Assembly: GCA_002840895.1 (NCBI GenBank)
Contig: PHCZ01000002.1
Location: forward strand, 62,001-126,000
Direction of reading: 5' to 3'
Source of the DNA: Bacteroidetes bacterium HGW-Bacteroidetes-8
Lineage (GTDB): Bacteria > Bacteroidota > Bacteroidia > Bacteroidales > UBA932
Length of the DNA stretch: 64,000 nucleotides
The notes below the pieces were generated by a model that saw nothing but the letters and a program-made list of their open reading frames with translations, had not been told where the DNA came from and ran no database searches. The translations under genes and the position numbers were made by a program. Of the stretch, positions 4,828 through 17,600 are shown piece by piece (positions within the stretch are counted from its first letter, which is position 1; every line of letters starts with the position of its first letter).

Positions 4828-5244
4828 ATGAGAGTAATAGGAGTTGAAATTGAAAAAAAGAGAGCCATCTGTTTTGCTTTAGAACAAGATAGTCAGGGGG
4901 GTTATGTCAATTTAACAGGAAATTTCAGCTTTCTTCAAATCAAAGAAGATCAGGATAACGGGGAGATTAAAAAATTTCAATCAGCTATAAACGCTTTTTT
5001 CGACAGCATAGATCCGGATGTCATTGCTATTATCTCAAGACAACCTAAGGGAAGATACTCATCTTCTACATTTTCGTTTAAACTTGAAGGTTTAATACAA
5101 TGCTATGACAAAGTAGATGTTGAATTTGTCTCTCCGAGAACTCTCTCTGCCTACTATAAAAAAAATCCTTTATTGGTGCCATTTGAAAACAACTATCAAG
5201 AGAATGCTGTCAAACTTGCAAGCTATTTATTGAATAGATTGTAG
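4828..5244 (+). CDS. DUF3010-like protein, possible RNase H fold
   Basis: A 138-residue protein of unknown function. It begins MRVIGVEIEKKRAICFAL, and a strand ending in a conserved acidic residue at the start is typical of RNase H/RuvC-like folds. The length and the central FKLEG and C-terminal SPRTL motifs resemble the DUF3010 family as I remember it; this assignment comes from memory only. There are no signal peptide or membrane segments. It is AT-rich compared with metG, lies between tRNA-Asn and the hybrid kinase, and ends only 38 bases before that kinase, so the two could be co-transcribed. No function is claimed. Confidence 0.6.
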   Translation: MRVIGVEIEKKRAICFALEQDSQGGYVNLTGNFSFLQIKEDQDNGEIKKFQSAINAFFDSIDPDVIAIISRQPKGRYSSSTFSFKLEGLIQCYDKVDVEFVSPRTLSAYYKKNPLLVPFENNYQENAVKLASYLLNRL

Positions 5245-5282: not shown

Positions 5283-8200
5283 ATGAAAAAGGTCAAAGGA
5301 AAGGAAGTAATAATTGAGGAATTATATGCTTCTGAGCTCACATATCGCAGCTTATTTGAATCATCACAAGACGGGATTCTGATCCTTGATGCAGAAACCG
5401 GAAAGATTGTTGATGTGAATCCTTTTTTAATTAATCTGCTAGGCTATTCAAAAAATGAGTTTATTGAGAAATCAATATGGGAGATAGGCTCTTTTAAAGA
5501 CATTTATAAGAATAAAGCGAAATTTTTGAAATTGCAACGAGAAAGGTATGTCAGATACGAAAATTTACCACTTGTAACTTCATCCGGAGATATAATTAAC
5601 GTTGAGTTCGTTAGTAATGTCTATTTAGCTAACAACCGAAAGGTAATTCAATGCAACATACGTGATATTACGGAAAGAAAAGAGGATGAAAACTCATTAT
5701 CCGAAATTAATCGTGTAACAAGTGATACTTTAGATATCATATTGAACCATATGCACGCTCCAATGATTATTTGGGACACCTCTTTGATAATAAAACGTTT
5801 CAATCGCCAATTTGAACTGCTGAGTGGTTATGATTCATCTGAAGTTATAGATAAAAAAATTGATTTTCTTTTCCCAAAAGAGAAAATTGCTTCAACAATT
5901 GAGTTGCTCAAAAATCATATGGAGCACGATCAAAATATTACTGAAATAGATATCTTAACAAAAGAGAACAAAATCAAGACAGTTTTGTGGAACTCATCAA
6001 GAATTCTTGACGAGAAGGGTACAAAAATTATTGCAACAATTTCACAGGACATAACAAGTCGCAAACTTACTGAGGATGCCTTGAACATTTCGGAGACCCG
6101 TTATCGCCGGCTTTTTGAGTCTGCTAAGGACGGGATACTTATCCTCAATGCCGAGACAGGAAAGATTGTTGACGTTAATCCTTTTTTAATTGATTTGCTG
6201 GGCTATTCAAAAAAAGAGTTTGCAGAAAAAACAATATGGGAAATTGTTACTTTTAAGGATATTTTTAAAAATAGAGAGAAGTTTTTGGAATTGCAACAAG
6301 AGGAGTATATTAGATATGACGATTTACCGCTTGTAACCTCAGATGGAAGAATAATCAGCGTTGAGTTAATCGGCACTAACTATTTTGAAGGCAATACAAA
6401 ATTAGTCCAATGCAACATACGGGATACAACCATACGAAGAGAAGCAGATCTGGCGCTTAGAAAAAGTGAATCTCATCTACGCGCACTTGTGAAAACTATC
6501 CCCGACCTAATTTGGTTAAAAGACACAAGCGGGGTGTACCTCTCGTGCAACCCTATGTTTGAGCGTTTTTTTGGATCAGGAGAAGCTGACATCATCGGTA
6601 AAACCGATTATGATTTTGTTGACCGGGAATTGGCCGATTTTTTCTGCGAAAATGACCAAAAAGCGATGGAGGCGGGTAAACCTACAAGCAACGAAGAGTG
6701 GGTTACCTTTGCTGACGATGGACATCGTGCCTTCCTGGAAACCATAAAATCTCCCATATACGATTCAGACGGAACAGTGATTGGTGTTCTTGGTATTGGG
6801 CGGGACATTACAGAAAGGATGCTTGCAGGGCAAGCTCTTCTGGAGAGTGAAAAACGTTTTAGGGCTATCTTTGATCAGGCTCCAATTGCCATCTCTCTTA
6901 TTGACTTGCAAGGATATCCAATCATCTCAAATTTACGTTTGTCAAAAATACTTGGTTACACTAAGGATGAGTTATCTAAAATGAAGTTTACTGACTTTAC
7001 CCATCCAGAAGATATAGACAAGGATTTGAATCAGTTTAATGAATTGATAGCCGGGAAAATATCCTGGTATAACTTAGAGAAAAGATACATCCATAAAAAT
7101 AAAAATATAATATGGGCTAACCTTTTTGTTACAACACTGAATGATTTCAATGGTTTGCCCCAGGAAATTATAGGAATGGTTGAGGATATTACCGAGCAGA
7201 AAAAGATTAATGACGAAATAAAATTGCAGGCAGACCTGTTAAGCAATGTAGGCCAGTCTATTATTGCTACCGACTTGCTGGGTAAAGTGATTTACTGGAA
7301 TAATGCAGCAGAAAAGATATATGGATGGTCTTCGACAGAGGCTATGGGACAAAATATTATTGATTTAACACCCTCCTTTCAATCCGGTGAACAGGCTATT
7401 GAGATAATGAAAAATTTAAGCGCAGGAAAAACCTGGGCAGGAGAGTTTAATGTAAAAAGAAAAGGTGGAACAAGTTTTCCTGCATTTGTAACCGACACAC
7501 CAATTCTTGACTCAAATGGTAAATTAACAGGTATTATAGGAATTTCAAGCGATATTACCGAACGCAAACTTGCAGAGATGGAGTTGATAGGAGCCAAAGA
7601 GAGAGCCCAGGAGAGCGACCGTCTAAAAACAGCCTTCCTGCACAATATTTCGCACGAAATAAGAACGCCTATGAATGCGATTGTGGGCTTTTCGGGTTTT
7701 CTTAACGACCCCGATTTGACACCCGAAAAACGGAACGATTTTATCAAAATAATAATTCAAAGCAGCGACCAGTTGCTTGCTATTATTGATGATATAATCA
7801 GAATTGCCTCTATTGAGTCCGGTCAGGAAAAGATTCAGGAAGATGAAATCAACATTAATTTAATTTGTACGCTTATAAATGAGCAATTTTCTCCTAAAGC
7901 CAATGAGAAGAGTATAACGCTTAGTCTAAAAACACCATTGGCCGACGATGAAGCGATTATTTTTACCGATACAACCAAACTAACGCAAATAATCACTAAC
8001 CTAATAGGCAATGCCTTTAAATTTACCCGACAGGGTTATGTCAATTTCGGATACAAGGTTAAGGGTAAACAATTGGAATTTTATGTTGGAGATTCCGGTA
8101 TAGGGATTGCTAAGGATATGCAGGAAAAAATATTTAATCGTTTTCGTCAGGTTGAAACCACCGATACCCGATATTTTGGAGGTTCAGGATTGGGTCTCTC

Positions 8201-8726
8201 TATATCAAAAGCTTATGTAGAGATGCTAGGTGGAAAAATGTGGTTATCTTCTGAATTAGGTAAAGGTTCTGTGTTTTATTTTACCATACCTTACAAAAGA
8301 TCAAATCCAAAAAAACTGCCAGAGACACCTTCCGTTAATGGATTAAACTTTGAATTAGATTCCACTAAAACAATATTGATTGCAGAAGATAAGGACTCTA
8401 ATTTTTTACTGTTGGAAGAGATGTTGTCGAATTCCAAAATAAATATTATCCGGGCTTTAAACGGGATAGAAGCAATCAAAATGTGCAAATCGAATCCAAA
8501 TATTGATTTAGTGCTAATGGATATTATAATGCCTGAGATGGATGGTTACGAAGCAACAAAACGGATTAAAGAGTTTAAGCCAAATTTACCAATTATTGCC
8601 CAATCTGCTTATATTAACGAATCTGATAGGTTAAAAGCCTTATCAAATGGTTGTTGCGACTTTATAAGTAAACCTATTAGCAAAAATATGTTGCTCTCTA
8701 AAATTAGTGAGAAACTTCATATATAG
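5283..8726 (+). CDS. Hybrid histidine kinase with six PAS domains and a C-terminal receiver
   Basis: A soluble sensor kinase of 1147 residues with no signal peptide or transmembrane helix. Domain order: PAS at about 15-135, 145-262, 270-390, 395-515, 525-645 and 655-765; HisKA with the phospho-accepting H-box HNISHEIRTP (His791); an HATPase domain with DSGIGIA and GGSGLGLS boxes; and a receiver domain at about 1030-1147 with Asp1080 in LMDIIMPEMDG. PAS1 and PAS3 are close copies of each other. It has no HPt domain of its own, whereas the next gene downstream carries one, so a His-Asp-His relay between the two is plausible (inference). The gene is noticeably AT-rich. The input signal is unknown. 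Confidence 0.93.
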   Translation: MKKVKGKEVIIEELYASELTYRSLFESSQDGILILDAETGKIVDVNPFLINLLGYSKNEFIEKSIWEIGSFKDIYKNKAKFLKLQRERYVRYENLPLVTSSGDIINVEFVSNVYLANNRKVIQCNIRDITERKEDENSLSEINRVTSDTLDIILNHMHAPMIIWDTSLIIKRFNRQFELLSGYDSSEVIDKKIDFLFPKEKIASTIELLKNHMEHDQNITEIDILTKENKIKTVLWNSSRILDEKGTKIIATISQDITSRKLTEDALNISETRYRRLFESAKDGILILNAETGKIVDVNPFLIDLLGYSKKEFAEKTIWEIVTFKDIFKNREKFLELQQEEYIRYDDLPLVTSDGRIISVELIGTNYFEGNTKLVQCNIRDTTIRREADLALRKSESHLRALVKTIPDLIWLKDTSGVYLSCNPMFERFFGSGEADIIGKTDYDFVDRELADFFCENDQKAMEAGKPTSNEEWVTFADDGHRAFLETIKSPIYDSDGTVIGVLGIGRDITERMLAGQALLESEKRFRAIFDQAPIAISLIDLQGYPIISNLRLSKILGYTKDELSKMKFTDFTHPEDIDKDLNQFNELIAGKISWYNLEKRYIHKNKNIIWANLFVTTLNDFNGLPQEIIGMVEDITEQKKINDEIKLQADLLSNVGQSIIATDLLGKVIYWNNAAEKIYGWSSTEAMGQNIIDLTPSFQSGEQAIEIMKNLSAGKTWAGEFNVKRKGGTSFPAFVTDTPILDSNGKLTGIIGISSDITERKLAEMELIGAKERAQESDRLKTAFLHNISHEIRTPMNAIVGFSGFLNDPDLTPEKRNDFIKIIIQSSDQLLAIIDDIIRIASIESGQEKIQEDEININLICTLINEQFSPKANEKSITLSLKTPLADDEAIIFTDTTKLTQIITNLIGNAFKFTRQGYVNFGYKVKGKQLEFYVGDSGIGIAKDMQEKIFNRFRQVETTDTRYFGGSGLGLSISKAYVEMLGGKMWLSSELGKGSVFYFTIPYKRSNPKKLPETPSVNGLNFELDSTKTILIAEDKDSNFLLLEEMLSNSKINIIRALNGIEAIKMCKSNPNIDLVLMDIIMPEMDGYEATKRIKEFKPNLPIIAQSAYINESDRLKALSNGCCDFISKPISKNMLLSKISEKLHI

Positions 8727-8781: not shown

Positions 8782-10380
8782 GTGAAACAAGGAGTAGTTC
8801 TAAAATCAACAATATCGGGGAGAGAGTATCCCATAGAGATGTTAGAGGAGTTTTCTCCCGATGGTGAATCTCTCGAGGTAGTTCAAAAAAACTCTACACT
8901 ACCAGTGCTTAGGAGAGGGAGAACACTTTATGAGCGGTTTGCCGAATTTTTACCATTTGAAACAGATCTGCACACTTATTCTCTAGGCGAGGGTAACACT
9001 CCTCTTATTGAGGCAGATGATAAACTTAAAGTGTATACCGGCATCTCCAATCTGCTCTTGAAGAACGAGACCCAAAACCCCACCTGGAGTTTTAAAGACA
9101 GGGGTTCGCTAACCTGTATTGCAATGGCAGCAGAGATGGGAGAGAGGGTTACTGCAACAATTTCTACAGGGAATATGGGTAACTCAATTGCCGCATATGG
9201 TGCAAAATCTGGCATAAAAGTGGTTGTTTTTGTTCCACACTATACTCCGCAGGAGAAGGTGAAGGCGATTGGGATACACGGTGCTAAAGTGATTAAGGTT
9301 ACCGCGCCGGACTACTCTCAGATGAAGAAAAAAGTTCTCTCCCTGGCAGGAAAACTGAACCTAAGAATCGTATCGGGTAACGGTCCAATAAGAGTGGAGG
9401 GGTATAAACTAACTGCTTTTGAGCTTTTTGAGCAGATGGGAGGAGAGTTCAGCTCTGTTCCCGACTATATTGCGGTTCCAACATCTGCCTGTGGTCATAT
9501 AAGGGGCATATTCAAAGGTTACCGGGAGATGATGGATGCGGGTATTATAGGTAAGTTGCCTAAGATGATTATTGTTCAGGCTGCAAATAACAGCCCTATT
9601 GTATCTGCAATTGCGCAGGGGCTTAAGGAGATTGTCCCTTTTTTCGGATTTCATACTATTGCCGAAGCTATAACATCCGGGAACCCGCAGGGTGGAGATG
9701 AGATTGTAGATAAATCATACAGGTACGGCTGGCTGGCAGAGAGTGTGACCGAGGAGGAGATAATTGAATCGCAGAGGAGAGTTGCAGAGAGTGGCTATTT
9801 TGTGGAACCGGCATCTGCTACTTCACTTTGCGCAGTAAAAAAACTTAGAGATAGGGGCTTAATAGAAAAAGATGCAAATGTCATTATTGTTCTTACAGGG
9901 TCTGGGCTAAAGGATACAGATGCGTTCCGTTACCACATAACTGACGAAACAGATATTGGAATTGAGGATTTGAATAATCTTGCCCATTTAGGTGAATTGA
10001 TTGGGTATGATTTCCCTGACGAAACAACTACTAAAGAAAGAATCTGTAATCTGTATAAGCTTGGAAGAGTTACCGGTAATAACAGAGAGCTAATAAAAGA
10101 GATGGTTAAATCGTTTATTGAAATTTTTCCGGGTTATTTTAATGAGGCCTGTGAGGCATATAATAGAGAAGATCTAATATCACTGAGAGCAAGTGCACAC
10201 AAATTGAAATCCGGCATCTCACTTGTAGTTCATTCAAAATACTCGTCAGAGATAATTGAAATAGAGGAGCTCTCTAAAGGAGGTATTGTAACTTCTGAAT
10301 TAATCGTAAAGATAGAATCGCTTAATGATTGGTTTCCAAAATTGGTAGAGGAGCTAAAAATTGAATTAGAGAGGATATAA
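8782..10380 (+). CDS. Threonine synthase-like PLP enzyme fused to a C-terminal HPt phosphotransfer domain
   Basis: The first ~395 residues are a fold-type II PLP enzyme of the threonine synthase family. Threonine synthase converts O-phosphohomoserine to threonine. The PLP lysine lies in SFKDRG (Lys105), the phosphate/cofactor loop is STGNMGNS, and the C-terminal loop is VLTGSGLKD. The protein continues for about 135 residues beyond the usual end. This extension is helical and contains the HPt signature AHKLKSG with the candidate phospho-histidine His473, plus the preceding F-x-E-x-F-P and D-x-x-x-L helix pattern. The start is GTG at 8782, with no better ATG nearby. The HPt-coding part looks more AT-rich than the enzyme part, similar to the kinase upstream. 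The gene starts 55 bp after the kinase, suggesting co-expression and phosphorelay coupling (inference). Confidence 0.9.
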   Translation: MKQGVVLKSTISGREYPIEMLEEFSPDGESLEVVQKNSTLPVLRRGRTLYERFAEFLPFETDLHTYSLGEGNTPLIEADDKLKVYTGISNLLLKNETQNPTWSFKDRGSLTCIAMAAEMGERVTATISTGNMGNSIAAYGAKSGIKVVVFVPHYTPQEKVKAIGIHGAKVIKVTAPDYSQMKKKVLSLAGKLNLRIVSGNGPIRVEGYKLTAFELFEQMGGEFSSVPDYIAVPTSACGHIRGIFKGYREMMDAGIIGKLPKMIIVQAANNSPIVSAIAQGLKEIVPFFGFHTIAEAITSGNPQGGDEIVDKSYRYGWLAESVTEEEIIESQRRVAESGYFVEPASATSLCAVKKLRDRGLIEKDANVIIVLTGSGLKDTDAFRYHITDETDIGIEDLNNLAHLGELIGYDFPDETTTKERICNLYKLGRVTGNNRELIKEMVKSFIEIFPGYFNEACEAYNREDLISLRASAHKLKSGISLVVHSKYSSEIIEIEELSKGGIVTSELIVKIESLNDWFPKLVEELKIELERI

Positions 10381-10476
10381 GTTGCTCAGAAGCTGTATCA
10401 TTTTAATACGCTTACTGTCTTATTTTGAGACACAATTAAAGGGGCTGCCTTTTCAAACATCTTATTTATTGCGTTT

Positions 10477-10484
10477 TACATTTG
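10477..10484 (+). promoter_or_regulatory. TACATTTG -7-like element upstream of the lipoprotein gene
   Basis: Matches TAnnTTTG and lies 65 bases before the start codon. There is no clear TTTG at the -33 distance. A TGGCAC sequence overlaps just downstream, but without a proper -12 GC it is not a credible sigma-54 promoter. Confidence 0.3.
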
Positions 10485-10549
10485 TGGCACGCAATTGGGT
10501 TTATAATAGTTAAACAGACTTAATTTTAATTATTATAAATAGACAAAAA

Positions 10550-11611
10550 ATGAAAACGAATAAAACACTATCAGCAATATTAATTGGCTTTCTCTCTATA
10601 ACAGCAATATCTTGTAATAAAGATTCTGCTCTGACAGATCTCTCTCTCTCGACACAAAACGAAGTTTTTGTAACTGGTTCTCAAGCAGTAAGCATTACAG
10701 GATTACAGGAAAATTCTGTAATATTATATGCAGGTCAGAGCATCAATGTTGGTGCTATCTCTTTTACAGAGATTGATACAGACAATAATAATGTTAAAGA
10801 TGCTTTAAAAGCAACCTACACTCTTACTAATGGATGGGAACTTTCGGATGTTGCTTTGTGGATAGGTAGTTCACTATCTACATTACCGGCAAACAAGGCA
10901 GGAAATCCTGTTGTTGGACATTTCCCATTCAAAGCAGGTAGCCTAAGTGGATCAACCGAATACTCAATTACAATTCCTTTCTCTTATCTCAACTATGTTC
11001 CAGGAGATGTTCCTGTAAACTATTATGTTGCAGCTCACGCAACCGTACGAAAACTCAATGGTGCAACATACCAGAGCGAAACAGCTTGGGGAAGCGGACT
11101 TAGGATAGTTCAAAAGGGTAACTGGGCAACCTACTTTAGCATAACTCTTACAAAAGATGTAGTTAAAGAGCCGGAAGTAAGTATAACTGAGACAGCATTC
11201 GCATATTCACCTTCTCTCTCTTCTACATTTGAATCTATAACAGGAGACAATGAAAGATGGGGCTGGAGCAACGGACCACTATCAAATGGTATATATAACT
11301 TTACACTCTATGCAGGTGCAGGTAATAATGACATAACAAAAGGTAAAGCAGTTGGTGTTGTGACTGTAAATTATAACGGTAGCATCGCAGTTGTATCATT
11401 CAATCTAAATTACCCATACAAATTAAAAGAGGCACACCTCTATGCAGGTAACGAGACCCTTCCTGTTAACAAGCAGGGTAAGTATGTTACAGCTCCCGGA
11501 CAATATCCATACACAACCTCTGAGCTTAACTCCTCTTCACAAACATTTAATGTAACCGGATTGAGCGGACAGATTTATATTGTTGCTCACGCTACAGTCT
11601 CCGGCTTCTAA
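10550..11611 (+). CDS. Putative lipoprotein with two repeated beta-rich domains, function unknown
   Basis: A 353-residue exported protein. Its N-terminus is a lipoprotein signal with lipobox ITAISC (Cys at about residue 22), so it is probably anchored in the outer or cytoplasmic membrane. Two related halves follow. The pattern ALWIGSSLSTLPANKAG near residue 103 recurs as HLYAGNETLPVNKQG near residue 295, and each half ends with a similar YYVAAHATV / IYIVAHATV strand. I do not recognise the family. It sits between the kinase/HPt genes and the sigma-54 activator, and a hairpin terminator follows it. It could be a secreted target or signal-binding partner of that signalling block, but nothing shows this directly. 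Confidence 0.8.
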   Translation: MKTNKTLSAILIGFLSITAISCNKDSALTDLSLSTQNEVFVTGSQAVSITGLQENSVILYAGQSINVGAISFTEIDTDNNNVKDALKATYTLTNGWELSDVALWIGSSLSTLPANKAGNPVVGHFPFKAGSLSGSTEYSITIPFSYLNYVPGDVPVNYYVAAHATVRKLNGATYQSETAWGSGLRIVQKGNWATYFSITLTKDVVKEPEVSITETAFAYSPSLSSTFESITGDNERWGWSNGPLSNGIYNFTLYAGAGNNDITKGKAVGVVTVNYNGSIAVVSFNLNYPYKLKEAHLYAGNETLPVNKQGKYVTAPGQYPYTTSELNSSSQTFNVTGLSGQIYIVAHATVSGF

Positions 11612-11727: not shown

Positions 11728-13080
11728 TCACCCTCTCTGTTCTATCACTTTAATATATCTGTAAACCGTTGCCCGGCTTATTCCCAGCTTTTTTGAAACA
11801 ATAGTAGGGTTTTGATTGTTCTGAGCAAGCGTTTTTTTCACCAATTCTAAAATGTACTCTTCCAGAGTTTTGTTCTCCTCAAAATCAATTAAAGATGAGC
11901 CTCCTGCCGGATTGAATCTGATATCATTTTTTTCTATAACATCATTGCTAGACAGTATGATAGCTAATTCTATAATTGCCTTAAGTTCTCTGATATTTCC
12001 CGGGAATGAGTATTTTAAAAGTTTCTCCGATGCTTCTGCCGAAAGAAGAGGAGTTCCTCTTTTATTTTCTTTGGAATACTGATTTATAAAGTATTTTGAG
12101 AGAATTAGAATATCGTCTCCTCTCTCCCTTAAAGGTGGAAGATGAATTGGGAGTCCCATTAGACGATAATAGAGATCTGCCCGGAAATTTCCATCATTGA
12201 CCTCATCTGCAAGATTTTTATGAGTTGCAGTTATTAACCTTACATTTATCTTAATTATTTGGTTACCACCAATGCGTCTTACCTCTTTTTCCTGAATTAC
12301 CCGAAGAAACTTACTCTGAATATTCAGATCCATCTCGGCTATTTCGTCTAAAAAAAGGGTACCATTGTGAGCCTCTTCAAAAATACCCGATTTTCTTGTA
12401 TATGCTCCGGTAAATGCCCCCTTTTCGTACCCGAACAGTTCACTCTCTACAAGATCTCTAGGAATAGCTCCCAGATTTACAGCAATAAATGGGTATCCGC
12501 TCCTTGCCGAGTTGTAATGAATAGCTTGTGCCACCATCTCCTTACCTGTTCCGGTCTCTCCTGTGACAGATACAGTAATGGATGATTCTGAGGCTTTTTC
12601 CATCAAGGAGAAGGTCTCTTTTAAAGATTTACTCTCCCCTATTATAACCTTTTGAAAATCATATTTAGCACCAACTGCCTTTTTTAAATTTTCATTTTGC
12701 CTTCTCAGACTCAGATTTTCTCTTAAAAGCCTGATAGAGTTCCATAACCTATCTGCAGTCTCTTCGTTCTTTACAATATAATCGAAAACACCCTCTTTGA
12801 GTAGATCAACAACTGTGTTTATGTCCTCTTGGCCTGAGATAATAATTGCAGAAATATCCCTATTTGTCTCTCGGATTTTCTTGTAGAGCTCCTTTCCGTT
12901 CATATCCGGTAATGAGAAGTCAATTGTGACAAGATCGGGTTTTTTGTAGAGGTTGTTCAAACACTCTTTGGCAGAGTTGAACTTTTCAAGCTGAAAATCC
13001 GGATTGAGAGATAGATGTTTAAACAACAGGGTAGAATACCAAAGGTCATCTTCAACTATAAATATCTTAAACATCTCCAT
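11728..13080 (-). CDS. Sigma-54-dependent response regulator (NtrC/AtoC type)
   Basis: A 450-residue transcription activator of sigma-54 RNA polymerase. The N-terminal receiver has its phospho-acceptor at Asp54 (TIDFSLPDMNG). The central AAA+ domain has Walker A GETGTGKE near residue 178, the sigma-54-contacting loop GAFTGA near 221, and Walker B LFLDEIAEM. A C-terminal Fis-type helix-turn-helix ends with SRATVYRYI. No cognate kinase is immediately adjacent in the same operon. The nearest candidates are the hybrid kinase with the downstream HPt protein (5-10 kb) and the PAS kinase at 15 kb. It has its own -7 box and is therefore probably transcribed alone. Confidence 0.95.
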   Translation of the reverse strand: MEMFKIFIVEDDLWYSTLLFKHLSLNPDFQLEKFNSAKECLNNLYKKPDLVTIDFSLPDMNGKELYKKIRETNRDISAIIISGQEDINTVVDLLKEGVFDYIVKNEETADRLWNSIRLLRENLSLRRQNENLKKAVGAKYDFQKVIIGESKSLKETFSLMEKASESSITVSVTGETGTGKEMVAQAIHYNSARSGYPFIAVNLGAIPRDLVESELFGYEKGAFTGAYTRKSGIFEEAHNGTLFLDEIAEMDLNIQSKFLRVIQEKEVRRIGGNQIIKINVRLITATHKNLADEVNDGNFRADLYYRLMGLPIHLPPLRERGDDILILSKYFINQYSKENKRGTPLLSAEASEKLLKYSFPGNIRELKAIIELAIILSSNDVIEKNDIRFNPAGGSSLIDFEENKTLEEYILELVKKTLAQNNQNPTIVSKKLGISRATVYRYIKVIEQRG

Positions 13081-15143: not shown

Positions 15144-17600
15144 ATGGGGATATTAAATTGTAAGTGTATGAGTCCGATTAATCTAAGTCCGGAGAATACC
15201 CGAGACAGTCTGGCATTTTTATCAGGTACCGCTATAAAGTTTGCCTCTTCCGGAGTCAGCAGTTCAATTTATCAAATTATTGCTGAGTCACTCCAAGAGT
15301 TGAATCCAAATGCAATAATTGTTGTAAACTCCGTTGATACAGAGCAGGAGATTAGCCGTACCGAAGCGTTTCTATCACCTCCAAGTCTGCTAGAGAGTAT
15401 TGTCTCCATCCTTGGGTTCAAGCCAGTAGGTAAAGTATACAAAATTGACTCATCTATTCTGGAGCTGAATTCGGGTTACATAAAAAAATTTGAACAGGGT
15501 TTGCACGAACTCTCATTTAGAACCATCCCCAAGGTAATCTCCAGGTCTCTTGAACGGCTTGTAAATCTCTCAGAGATATACGGTATTGCATTTATGGTTG
15601 AAGAGAATATGTTTGCAAACGCCGCATTGATTTTTAGAAAAGGGGATACTCTTGCCCACCGGGAGACCATTGAGACATTTGTCAAACAGGCATCTGTGAC
15701 CCTTAAAAGAATAGAGGCAGAGAGAAGCGAGCAGAAGTTCCGTTCACTCTTTGAGCATATGACACAGGGTGCTTTTTATTTGCGTTCAGATGGGAAAATT
15801 ACAGATATCAACAGGGTTGCACTGGATTTGCTAGGTCTGCAAAAGATTGATTTTCTTGGCAAAAAAAACATTAGGGATGATTGGGAATTGATTGATGAAA
15901 ACCACAAACCAATTCCTGCACAAGAGTTTCCGGCTACTGTTGCGTTAATAAAAGGAGAACCGATTTACGAGAAAATAGTTGGAATATTTAACCCTGTTAA
16001 AAAGGACTATATATGGATTCTTGTAAATGCAATCCCAATATTTACTAACGAAAGTAAAGCACCATCTTCTGTTTTTGTCACTTTTCAGGATATCACTACA
16101 ATAAGGAGGTCTGTTCACAGGGTAATGGAATCTGAGGCCAATGCCAGAGCTATAATGGAGTCTACAGACGACATAATTATCCTGCTTGACGCAGATGGTG
16201 TGGTAATCGACTGTAACGAGGCTCACGCAAATAGACTGAACTTTGAGAGGGAGAATTTAATTGGGAAGAATGTTTTTGATTTGCTGCCCCAGGATGTAGG
16301 AAAAACAAGAAAAGAGGCGATTAAGGAGGTAATTAAAACCGGCAAACCTGTTTTTGGAGAAGACTTCAGAGCTGGATTCTGGAACGAGTACTCTATTCAC
16401 CCTATAGTTTCACATAGAGGAAAAGTAGAAAGAGTAACTGTTTTCTCTAAAGATATCACAGCGAGAAAAGAAATTGAGGAGAAGCTCCTTGAGAGCGAAC
16501 AGGGGAAGGCGTCGTTAATCGATAATCTGCCGGGTTTTGTCTATAAATGTGCTCTTGATCATCAGTGGACAATGTTTTACATAAGTGAAGAGTGCTATAA
16601 GATAACCGGATACCGTCCGGAGGATTTTATCTTTAATAATAAAATATCCTACAACGAAATCATACACACCAATTTCAGGGAGTCGATATGGAATAAGTGG
16701 CAGAGTGTAGTCTCTTCCGGAACACCCTTTAGAGAGGAGTATCAAATAATAACTGCAGATGACCATATAAGATGGGTGTGGGAACAGGGTCGCGGTGTCT
16801 ACTCTAAAGAGGGGATACTTACTCATCTTGAAGGATTTATAACAGATATAACTGAGAGAAAAGAGATGGAGGAGGCCCTCAAAGAGAGCGAGGCGAGGCT
16901 TGTTGAACTAAATGCAACAAAAGATAAGTTTTTCTCAATTATTGCACACGACCTCAAGAGCCCCTTTAATAGTATTATTGGCATTGGAGAGCTTCTTATA
17001 GAGCAGATTAAGAGAAAAGAATTTGAAGATATCGAAGAGTATGCCGCCATTATGAGGGACTCATCTCATAAAGCTATGAACCTGCTAACGAATCTGCTTG
17101 AGTGGTCCCGTTCGCAAACAGGCAGGATGGATTTCAACCCTGAATTTTTACGACTCTCACAGTTGGCAGATGAGGTGGTTGATCTTTTGCGTTTTACAGC
17201 AAACCAAAAATCAATCATAATATCTTCCCAAATTCCAAAGAGCGCTGTCTGTTATGCAGATAAAGCGATGATTGGTTCTGTTTTGCGCAATCTTGTCTCC
17301 AACGCAATTAAATTTACCGGCAAAGGTGGAGAGATTGTTGTTTCGGCAAAGATGACGGAAGATAGATATATTGTTACTGTATCTGATAACGGAACCGGAA
17401 TGTCTAAGGCAGAAATAGACAACCTATTTAGAATCGATAAATTTTACTCTACCCGAGGGACAGATAACGAGGGGGGAACCGGCTTAGGTCTAATTCTTTG
17501 TAAAGAGTTTATCTCGCGTCACGGCTGTGAAATATGGGCAGATAGCAAAAAGGGCGAGGGGAGCAGTTTCTCTTTTACCCTGCCAAGGGATTCCCGGTAA
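15144..17600 (+). CDS. PAS-domain sensor histidine kinase
   Basis: An 818-residue kinase without transmembrane segments. Residues ~1-190 form a GAF-like or otherwise uncharacterised sensor region. Three or four PAS units follow (about 195-315, 320-440, 445-570), each closing with a D-I-T-x-R-x-E-type linker. HisKA carries the H-box IIAHDLKSPF with phospho-acceptor His602, and the HATPase domain has DNGTGMS and GGTGLGLILC boxes. It has no receiver or output domain, so it must phosphorylate a separate regulator. No response regulator is adjacent; the NtrC-type protein at 11.7-13.1 kb is the closest. The start is uncertain: ATG at 15168 (MSPINLSPEN) is an alternative. The signal is unknown. Confidence 0.9.
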   Translation: MGILNCKCMSPINLSPENTRDSLAFLSGTAIKFASSGVSSSIYQIIAESLQELNPNAIIVVNSVDTEQEISRTEAFLSPPSLLESIVSILGFKPVGKVYKIDSSILELNSGYIKKFEQGLHELSFRTIPKVISRSLERLVNLSEIYGIAFMVEENMFANAALIFRKGDTLAHRETIETFVKQASVTLKRIEAERSEQKFRSLFEHMTQGAFYLRSDGKITDINRVALDLLGLQKIDFLGKKNIRDDWELIDENHKPIPAQEFPATVALIKGEPIYEKIVGIFNPVKKDYIWILVNAIPIFTNESKAPSSVFVTFQDITTIRRSVHRVMESEANARAIMESTDDIIILLDADGVVIDCNEAHANRLNFERENLIGKNVFDLLPQDVGKTRKEAIKEVIKTGKPVFGEDFRAGFWNEYSIHPIVSHRGKVERVTVFSKDITARKEIEEKLLESEQGKASLIDNLPGFVYKCALDHQWTMFYISEECYKITGYRPEDFIFNNKISYNEIIHTNFRESIWNKWQSVVSSGTPFREEYQIITADDHIRWVWEQGRGVYSKEGILTHLEGFITDITERKEMEEALKESEARLVELNATKDKFFSIIAHDLKSPFNSIIGIGELLIEQIKRKEFEDIEEYAAIMRDSSHKAMNLLTNLLEWSRSQTGRMDFNPEFLRLSQLADEVVDLLRFTANQKSIIISSQIPKSAVCYADKAMIGSVLRNLVSNAIKFTGKGGEIVVSAKMTEDRYIVTVSDNGTGMSKAEIDNLFRIDKFYSTRGTDNEGGTGLGLILCKEFISRHGCEIWADSKKGEGSSFSFTLPRDSR

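Follow-up and report, generated by a model that had tools for sequence, protein, structure and literature searches.

A threonine-synthase-like PLP enzyme joined to an HPt domain close to a conserved sigma-54 response regulator in Bacteroidota

Phosphorelays are usually pictured as running from a kinase through a receiver, an HPt domain and a second receiver, with a regulator or a second-messenger enzyme at the end. HPt domains ordinarily pass the phosphate on within such chains, and an amino-acid enzyme with an HPt of its own would place metabolism inside the relay. NtrC-type sigma-54 response regulators generally use paired upstream sites, and PLP folds serve as sensors in regulators of the MocR/PdxR type. 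On the enzyme side, the solved structures 1uim (Thermus), 2zsj (Aquifex-type) and 2d1f (Mycobacterium-type) are, as we take them to be, short ThrC threonine synthases. A cyanobacterial ThrC-like protein has been shown to deaminate threonine (PMC12172450).

The present study concerns a 64,000-nucleotide stretch of a Bacteroidota genome (hereafter the window), in which a fusion gene, shared by a small group of related uncultured bacteria and close to a conserved regulator, suggests a direct connection of metabolism with signalling that has not been described. The original prediction, made from the letters of this DNA, knew of no described example, and our literature search, most subscription journals lying outside it, likewise turned up no account in which a PLP or biosynthetic enzyme carries a fused HPt.

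The fusion gene and its HPt domain

The fusion gene (8782–10380, forward strand) encodes a threonine-synthase-like PLP enzyme with a C-terminal HPt domain. It is a single open frame of 532 amino acids that starts with GTG at 8782, contains no internal stop and ends with its stop codon at 10380, and Pfam matches it to PALP and weakly to Hpt. The enzyme part (residues 1–385, 8782–9936) carries the PLP lysine Lys105 (codon 9094–9096) and the HPt domain (residues 426–532, 10057–10377) carries His473 (codon 10198–10200); between them lies a linker (residues 386–425, 9937–10056) that is variable in the alignment with the relatives L033 and L036, all three parts being on the forward strand. Lys105 had been predicted to lie in SFKDRG and His473 in AHKLKSG, and both are found at these residues. 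A frameshift or misassembly behind the fusion is ruled out by the single frame and by two other MAG records that agree with it. The window frame is unbroken, so that the two separate genes which the original prediction had named as a possible outcome are not indicated; and because the fusion is found again in two separately named MAG records, it is no assembly accident. A full-length AlphaFold model of the fusion protein (pLDDT 53) is too poor for placing the HPt relative to the enzyme.

At E ≤ 1e-60 the enzyme is present in six of the 25 genomes of the genus, three times fused and three times unfused. The fused genomes are that of the window (G000), L033/G505 (HGW-Bacteroidetes-5) and L036/G554, the L and G labels being taken to denote the same genomes; the search for this architecture in other Bacteroidota thus yields a PALP–HPt fusion in two more members of the genus. 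L033 and L036 are 97–98% identical, and the three fused genomes therefore represent two lineages. Between the window and L033, the enzyme is 82% identical, the HPt is 62% identical and the linker is poorly conserved, with 12 of the 27 aligned residues identical; the window linker is 13 residues longer than those of L033 and L036. Judged from the aligned codons (enzyme dN 0.121, dS 1.17; HPt dN 0.262, dS saturated), the enzyme and the HPt are both under purifying selection. The fusion is real and old. In samples of 393 genomes of the order and 395 of the phylum, with at most three candidates per genome scored and the other enzyme-bearing genomes of the genus evidently not among them, no relative other than that of the window itself was found at E ≤ 1e-100, and plasmid records contained no relative at E ≤ 1e-50.

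The Pfam Hpt family (PF01627, cut-off 24.6 bits) matches residues 440–487 of the whole fusion protein with E = 0.014 (16 bits) and two C-terminal pieces with E = 0.0012 and 0.00082 (19.5 and 20 bits). Since all of these scores (16–20 bits) fail the curated cut-off, the assignment rests on evidence from outside Pfam; of the two domains for which a search had been suggested, PALP is clear and Hpt is matched below the family threshold. A tblastn-type search of 395 Bacteroidota genomes with the C-terminal 133 residues gave matches in 61 of them (the window genome counted), with non-self identities of 20–33%. Twenty-nine non-self HPt loci were kept, comprising 13 with a receiver-like motif just upstream, nine short frames of 117–140 residues, six long frames without a crude receiver-like motif and one that was unreadable. 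The three fused proteins align almost without gaps through the core with 24 of these non-fused loci, and in all 27 rows one Leu, the His and the Lys of HxxK are invariant, His473 and Lys476 of the fusion falling in such columns; all 27 members match Pfam Hpt at E ≤ 0.01. Against a profile of the 29 non-fused HPts the window domain scores 91.5 bits (best of 10,000 shuffles, 10.8), a value that is inflated because 28 of the 29 profile members were found by similarity to this very domain, and the domains of L033 and L036 score 92.1 and 90.4 bits. Run against the PDB, the 27-row profile retrieves HPt proteins of solved structure (best 3myf, E = 7e-10); neither phmmer with the C-terminal piece nor a profile of three rows yielded an HPt among the PDB sequences.

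Five AlphaFold models of the HPt domain, built from three sequences, have mean pLDDT values of 92.5, 92.3, 77.5, 45.0 and 44.0. The best is a helical bundle whose nearest PDB structures are 3myf (TM 0.84) and 7c1i (HptB; TM 0.82), and the first 16 Foldseek matches consist of 15 HPt chains and one designed four-helix bundle, with a best E of 2.4e-3 and no match at or below 0.001. The bundle fold anticipated for this domain is thus obtained, three of the five models being less confident. A chance motif is ruled out by the alignment, the profile score relative to shuffles, the AlphaFold model and the Foldseek neighbours, and the C-terminal domain is confirmed, by sequence comparison and predicted fold, as a real HPt. 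The central claim of the original prediction, that a threonine-synthase-like PLP enzyme carries a fused HPt, therefore stands, in a single 532-residue frame that recurs in relatives. It is very improbable that this HPt is degenerate and accepts no phosphate: its Pfam score is under the cut-off and the usual Gly after the active-site helix is replaced by Val or Ala, but the His and the Lys are kept in all three fused proteins, the domain is under purifying selection and an HPt fold is predicted.

Beyond the fusion, HPts that might compete with it are few in the window genome (95.7% complete), where two were found, one in a kinase frame of 1035 residues and one in a frame of 725 residues. Elsewhere in the genus, short HPt-like proteins adjoin sigma-54-type response regulators in four of the ten loci inspected (L088, L090, L092 and L096; regulator domains Pfam-checked in one). 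Each is 117 residues long and keeps the His, the Lys of HxxK is absent from all four, and two of the three that were scanned did not match Pfam Hpt at E ≤ 0.001. On the other side of the short gene, L088, L090 and L096 have frames with receiver or kinase similarity.

The PLP enzyme half

Pfam PALP covers residues 67–373 of the fusion protein (E = 6.4e-63), and the enzyme half is an intact fold-type-II PLP enzyme in which SFKDRG and STGNMG are invariant in all five aligned sequences. It scores 190.4 bits with the NCBIfam model TIGR00260 (thrC), above the threshold of 167.1, and is thus thrC by NCBI's own cut-off; PRK08197 scores it better than TIGR00260 and yet remains below its own cut-off (224 versus 303). 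The closest solved structures by sequence are 1uim, 2zsj, 2d1f and 1e5x (E = 4.6e-47 to 2e-37). The residues Asn154, Ser155, Arg160 and Asn188 of Thermus ThrC, which we take to be the contacts to the phosphate of O-phosphohomoserine, align with Ser198, Gly199, Arg204 and Ala236, so that by hand count on the alignment one of the four (Arg) is kept. The changed residues Ser, Gly and Ala are identical in all eight aligned members of the clade, which comprise the six enzymes of the genus and two further unfused relatives from MAG records named Gillisia and Desulfobacteraceae.

A separate frame elsewhere in the genome has a Thr_synth_N domain, scores as thrC over the cut-off and lies beside homoserine kinase (thrB) and an aspartokinase-like frame. 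As this thrC adjoins thrB, the fusion gene need not fill the threonine-synthase role; and because a canonical thrB–thrC pair is present elsewhere and the pocket positions differ across the clade, the enzyme half is, judged from sequence, probably not the threonine synthase of the cell. The biosynthetic threonine synthase that had been predicted is thus upheld as a ThrC-like enzyme, and its biosynthetic role is made doubtful by the separate thrC beside thrB and by the different pocket residues.

At L034 the gene for an unfused enzyme (5989–7614) is followed 6 bp downstream by a PF01042 gene, and an aminotransferase class IV gene lies nearby. PF01042 is presumably the RidA family, and its place directly after the unfused enzyme hints at an enamine-releasing reaction. 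For the enzyme half we favour an activity of elimination or deamination over threonine synthesis, given the separate thrC, the changed pocket, the PF01042 neighbour at L034 and the analogy with the ThrC-like protein that deaminates.

Neighbouring genes and the intergenic region

A PAS-repeat hybrid histidine kinase of 1147 amino acids (5283–8726, forward strand) ends 55 bp before the fusion gene on the same strand and is a possible phosphate donor. According to Pfam it comprises PAS repeats, HisKA, HATPase_c and a C-terminal receiver, with no Hpt at E ≤ 1, in agreement with the original description of a receiver-ended kinase lacking an HPt; its phospho-sites by motif are His791 and Asp1080. 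The stretches examined that flank the fusion in G505 and G554 do not contain this kinase. Its best-scoring match in each of these genomes is 35–36% identical (residues 417–1146), and for the kinase core alone the matches are 46–49% identical, as expected of paralogues. In the absence of conserved linkage with the fusion, the upstream kinase was set aside as a conserved partner. Four other kinase frames of the window genome match it as far as its residue 1130 or further, through most of the receiver. A DUF3010 gene (4828–5244, forward strand) lies directly upstream of the hybrid kinase, and a PAS-type histidine kinase with HisKA and HATPase_c and without a receiver (15144–17600, forward strand) could also serve the sigma-54 regulator described next.

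What is kept in all three fused genomes, with differing flanks, is a block of three genes that encode the enzyme–HPt fusion, a secreted-looking protein and a sigma-54 response regulator. In the 12–19 kb examined around the fusion in the two other genomes (ORFs of at least 90 residues, E ≤ 1e-8), only the latter two match the window besides the fusion itself, and none of the other ORFs does. The secreted-looking gene (10550–11611, forward strand) encodes 353 amino acids, appears by eye to be secreted or lipoprotein-like and is the proposed target of the regulator. Its product is 84–85% identical in L033 and L036, with no family over the cut-off and no convincing solved relative, and by eye one half of it resembles the other, which suggests that a domain is repeated. 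The regulator (11728–13080, reverse strand) is the proposed phosphate acceptor and is of the NtrC type according to Pfam, NCBIfam and its motifs, with receiver Asp54, an AAA+ domain carrying GAFTGA at residue 221 and weak Pfam matches to HTH. It is the next gene but one to the fusion in all three fused genomes and lies on the opposite strand. The search for it covered nine of the 25 genomes of the genus; in the other two genomes with the fusion its match is 82–83% identical, and in the six without the fusion no match exceeds 43%. The co-occurrence of fusion and regulator is statistically weak because effectively two lineages are involved.

The region between the fusion and the secreted-protein gene holds two proposed regulator sites on the forward strand, an imperfect dyad at 10394–10410 (10 of 17 positions symmetric, 13 of 17 columns conserved in the three genomes) and a second site at 10416–10432 (12 and 15 of 17, respectively). 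They are spaced by 22 bp from start to start, and the 22-bp direct repeat also occurs in L033 and L036; in L033, 12 and 8 of the 17 positions are symmetric. Downstream lies a sigma-54-like element, TGGCAC-N5-TGGG (10485–10499, forward strand), recognized in the three-genome alignment and imperfect in its −12 half. In all three fused genomes the paired sites and the −24-like element precede the secreted-protein gene. Conservation is 25 of 29 columns around the element (10482–10510), compared with 17 of 45 between the sites and the element, 24 of 39 at 10511–10549 and 3 of 13 at 10381–10393. Allowing one mismatch, the site pattern has 10, 9 and 7 matches in G000, G505 and G554 (reversed control, five each), and in each genome the only paired ones are the two that precede the secreted-protein gene. 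Since the pattern was drawn from these sites, lone matches at other places lie close to background, and it is the pairing that carries weight.

A sigma-54 promoter upstream of the secreted-protein gene is put forward as a proposal from sequence, and as no more, because its −12 half deviates from what we take to be the sigma-54 consensus, a strict scan for the sigma-54 core with two mismatches found none in this intergenic region and shuffled sequences often match the pattern. The 19-base pattern, which was taken from the site itself, occurs with at most three mismatches in 41 of 100 shuffles, and the −24-like element is seen only by comparison of the three genomes. A sigma-70 promoter scan gave 25 sites against a shuffle mean of 25.1. 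Just upstream of the secreted-protein start, 10500–10539 contains a 15-nt inverted repeat (93% complementary), and a shorter perfect one (9 nt) occupies a like place in L033 and L036.

Possible wiring of the relay and comparison with known systems

The reading that we prefer, at a probability of roughly one half, is that the fusion protein is an enzyme-tethered intermediate of a phosphorelay that would run from a kinase through the enzyme-borne HPt to the sigma-54 regulator and the secreted protein. A receiver-ended hybrid kinase, here in the simplest case the one whose gene ends 55 bp before the fusion, would pass phosphate to His473, and His473 would hand it to the receiver Asp of the regulator, which would then activate the secreted-protein gene from the two paired sites and the −24-like element. 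The enzyme half would keep turning over an amino-acid substrate, with elimination or deamination as the probable reaction, and either this substrate or the conformation of the enzyme half may be coupled to the HPt such that metabolism and relay influence each other. The coupling could take either direction, the relay controlling the enzyme or the state of the enzyme gating the relay. In favour of this reading are the HPt identity, the conserved three-gene block, the co-occurrence of regulator and fusion, the paired sites, the small number of other HPts in the window genome and the short HPt-like genes beside sigma-54-type regulators; against it weigh the missing Lys in those short proteins, the low Pfam Hpt score, the variable linker, the partial symmetry of the sites and the imperfect promoter-like element. 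From the gene neighbourhood, a DNA-binding regulator probably takes its phosphate from the enzyme-borne HPt. The original prediction had the relay act on the enzyme in place of a DNA-binding regulator, and on this point it found no support, the kinase not being conserved with the fusion and the sigma-54 regulator being so. We retain from it a metabolic enzyme inside a phosphorelay and drop the bypassing of a DNA-binding regulator.

A direct switch, in which the upstream kinase phosphorylates His473 and so turns the enzyme on or off as the end point of the relay, would suit a receiver-ended kinase without an HPt whose gene precedes the fusion by 55 bp in the same orientation, as well as the intact enzyme motifs. 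It is nevertheless unlikely: conservation with the fusion extends to the DNA-binding response regulator and not to the kinase, HPt domains are normally points of transit, and the joint between enzyme and HPt is modelled too poorly to be of use. The wiring may also run in reverse, with the PLP half mainly an amino-acid sensor whose ligand state gates phosphotransfer from the HPt to the sigma-54 regulator, and we hold this as a tentative possibility, well short of even odds. The separate canonical thrB–thrC pair, the changed pocket residues of the clade, the conserved regulator and putative target close by and the precedent of PLP folds as sensors in MocR/PdxR-type regulators speak for it; against it, the catalytic motifs are kept and the enzyme is under strong purifying selection (dN 0.121, dS 1.17), and the changed pocket also occurs in the unfused relatives and is therefore no sign of lost catalysis.

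It is likewise doubtful that the two halves are independent and simply tethered, the HPt serving several receiver-ended kinases with the enzyme as a passenger. The four other kinase frames with a receiver match, the finding of only two further HPts and a linker that varies in length and sequence would fit such an arrangement, but the fusion is kept across two lineages with the enzyme 82% and the HPt 62% identical, and a search of nine genomes gave no free copy of the fusion HPt. Other short HPt-like proteins are present in these genomes, one of them in G554, for which the fusion is thus not the only free HPt.

As a speculative suggestion with the odds against it, the PLP enzyme might act as a gatekeeper whose ligand occupancy sets the rate of phosphotransfer from the HPt to a dedicated sigma-54 regulator. 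If so, an enzyme in turnover would give the cell a direct reading of how much of an amino acid, or of its enamine product, is present, and this readout would turn on the conserved secreted protein. The architecture is small, two lineages have kept it, and it lends itself to testing in a laboratory strain; its partner and its target promoter are both predicted.

Compared with known HPts (PF01627), the fusion HPt is alike in fold, in the His-x-x-Lys motif, in size and in its C-terminal position; the known domains are part of kinase–receiver proteins (hybrid kinases) or free-standing, whereas this one is joined to a metabolic PLP enzyme and scores below the Pfam cut-off. The enzyme resembles the short ThrC proteins (1uim, 2zsj and 2d1f) in the PLP lysine motif, in sequence closeness and in exceeding the TIGR00260 cut-off, and differs from them in three of the four presumed phosphate-contact positions, in the extra HPt and in the separate thrC of its genome. 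In the part of its description covered here, the deaminating cyanobacterial protein is a ThrC-like paralogue beside a second ThrC, with an N-terminal extension and no mention of an HPt, and it shows that proteins of this kind can deaminate threonine (PMC12172450). With NtrC-type sigma-54 regulators the locus shares the receiver, the AAA+ domain with GAFTGA and two partly symmetric sites 22 bp apart before a −24-like element; the difference is that the predicted partner of the regulator is here an HPt carried by an enzyme.
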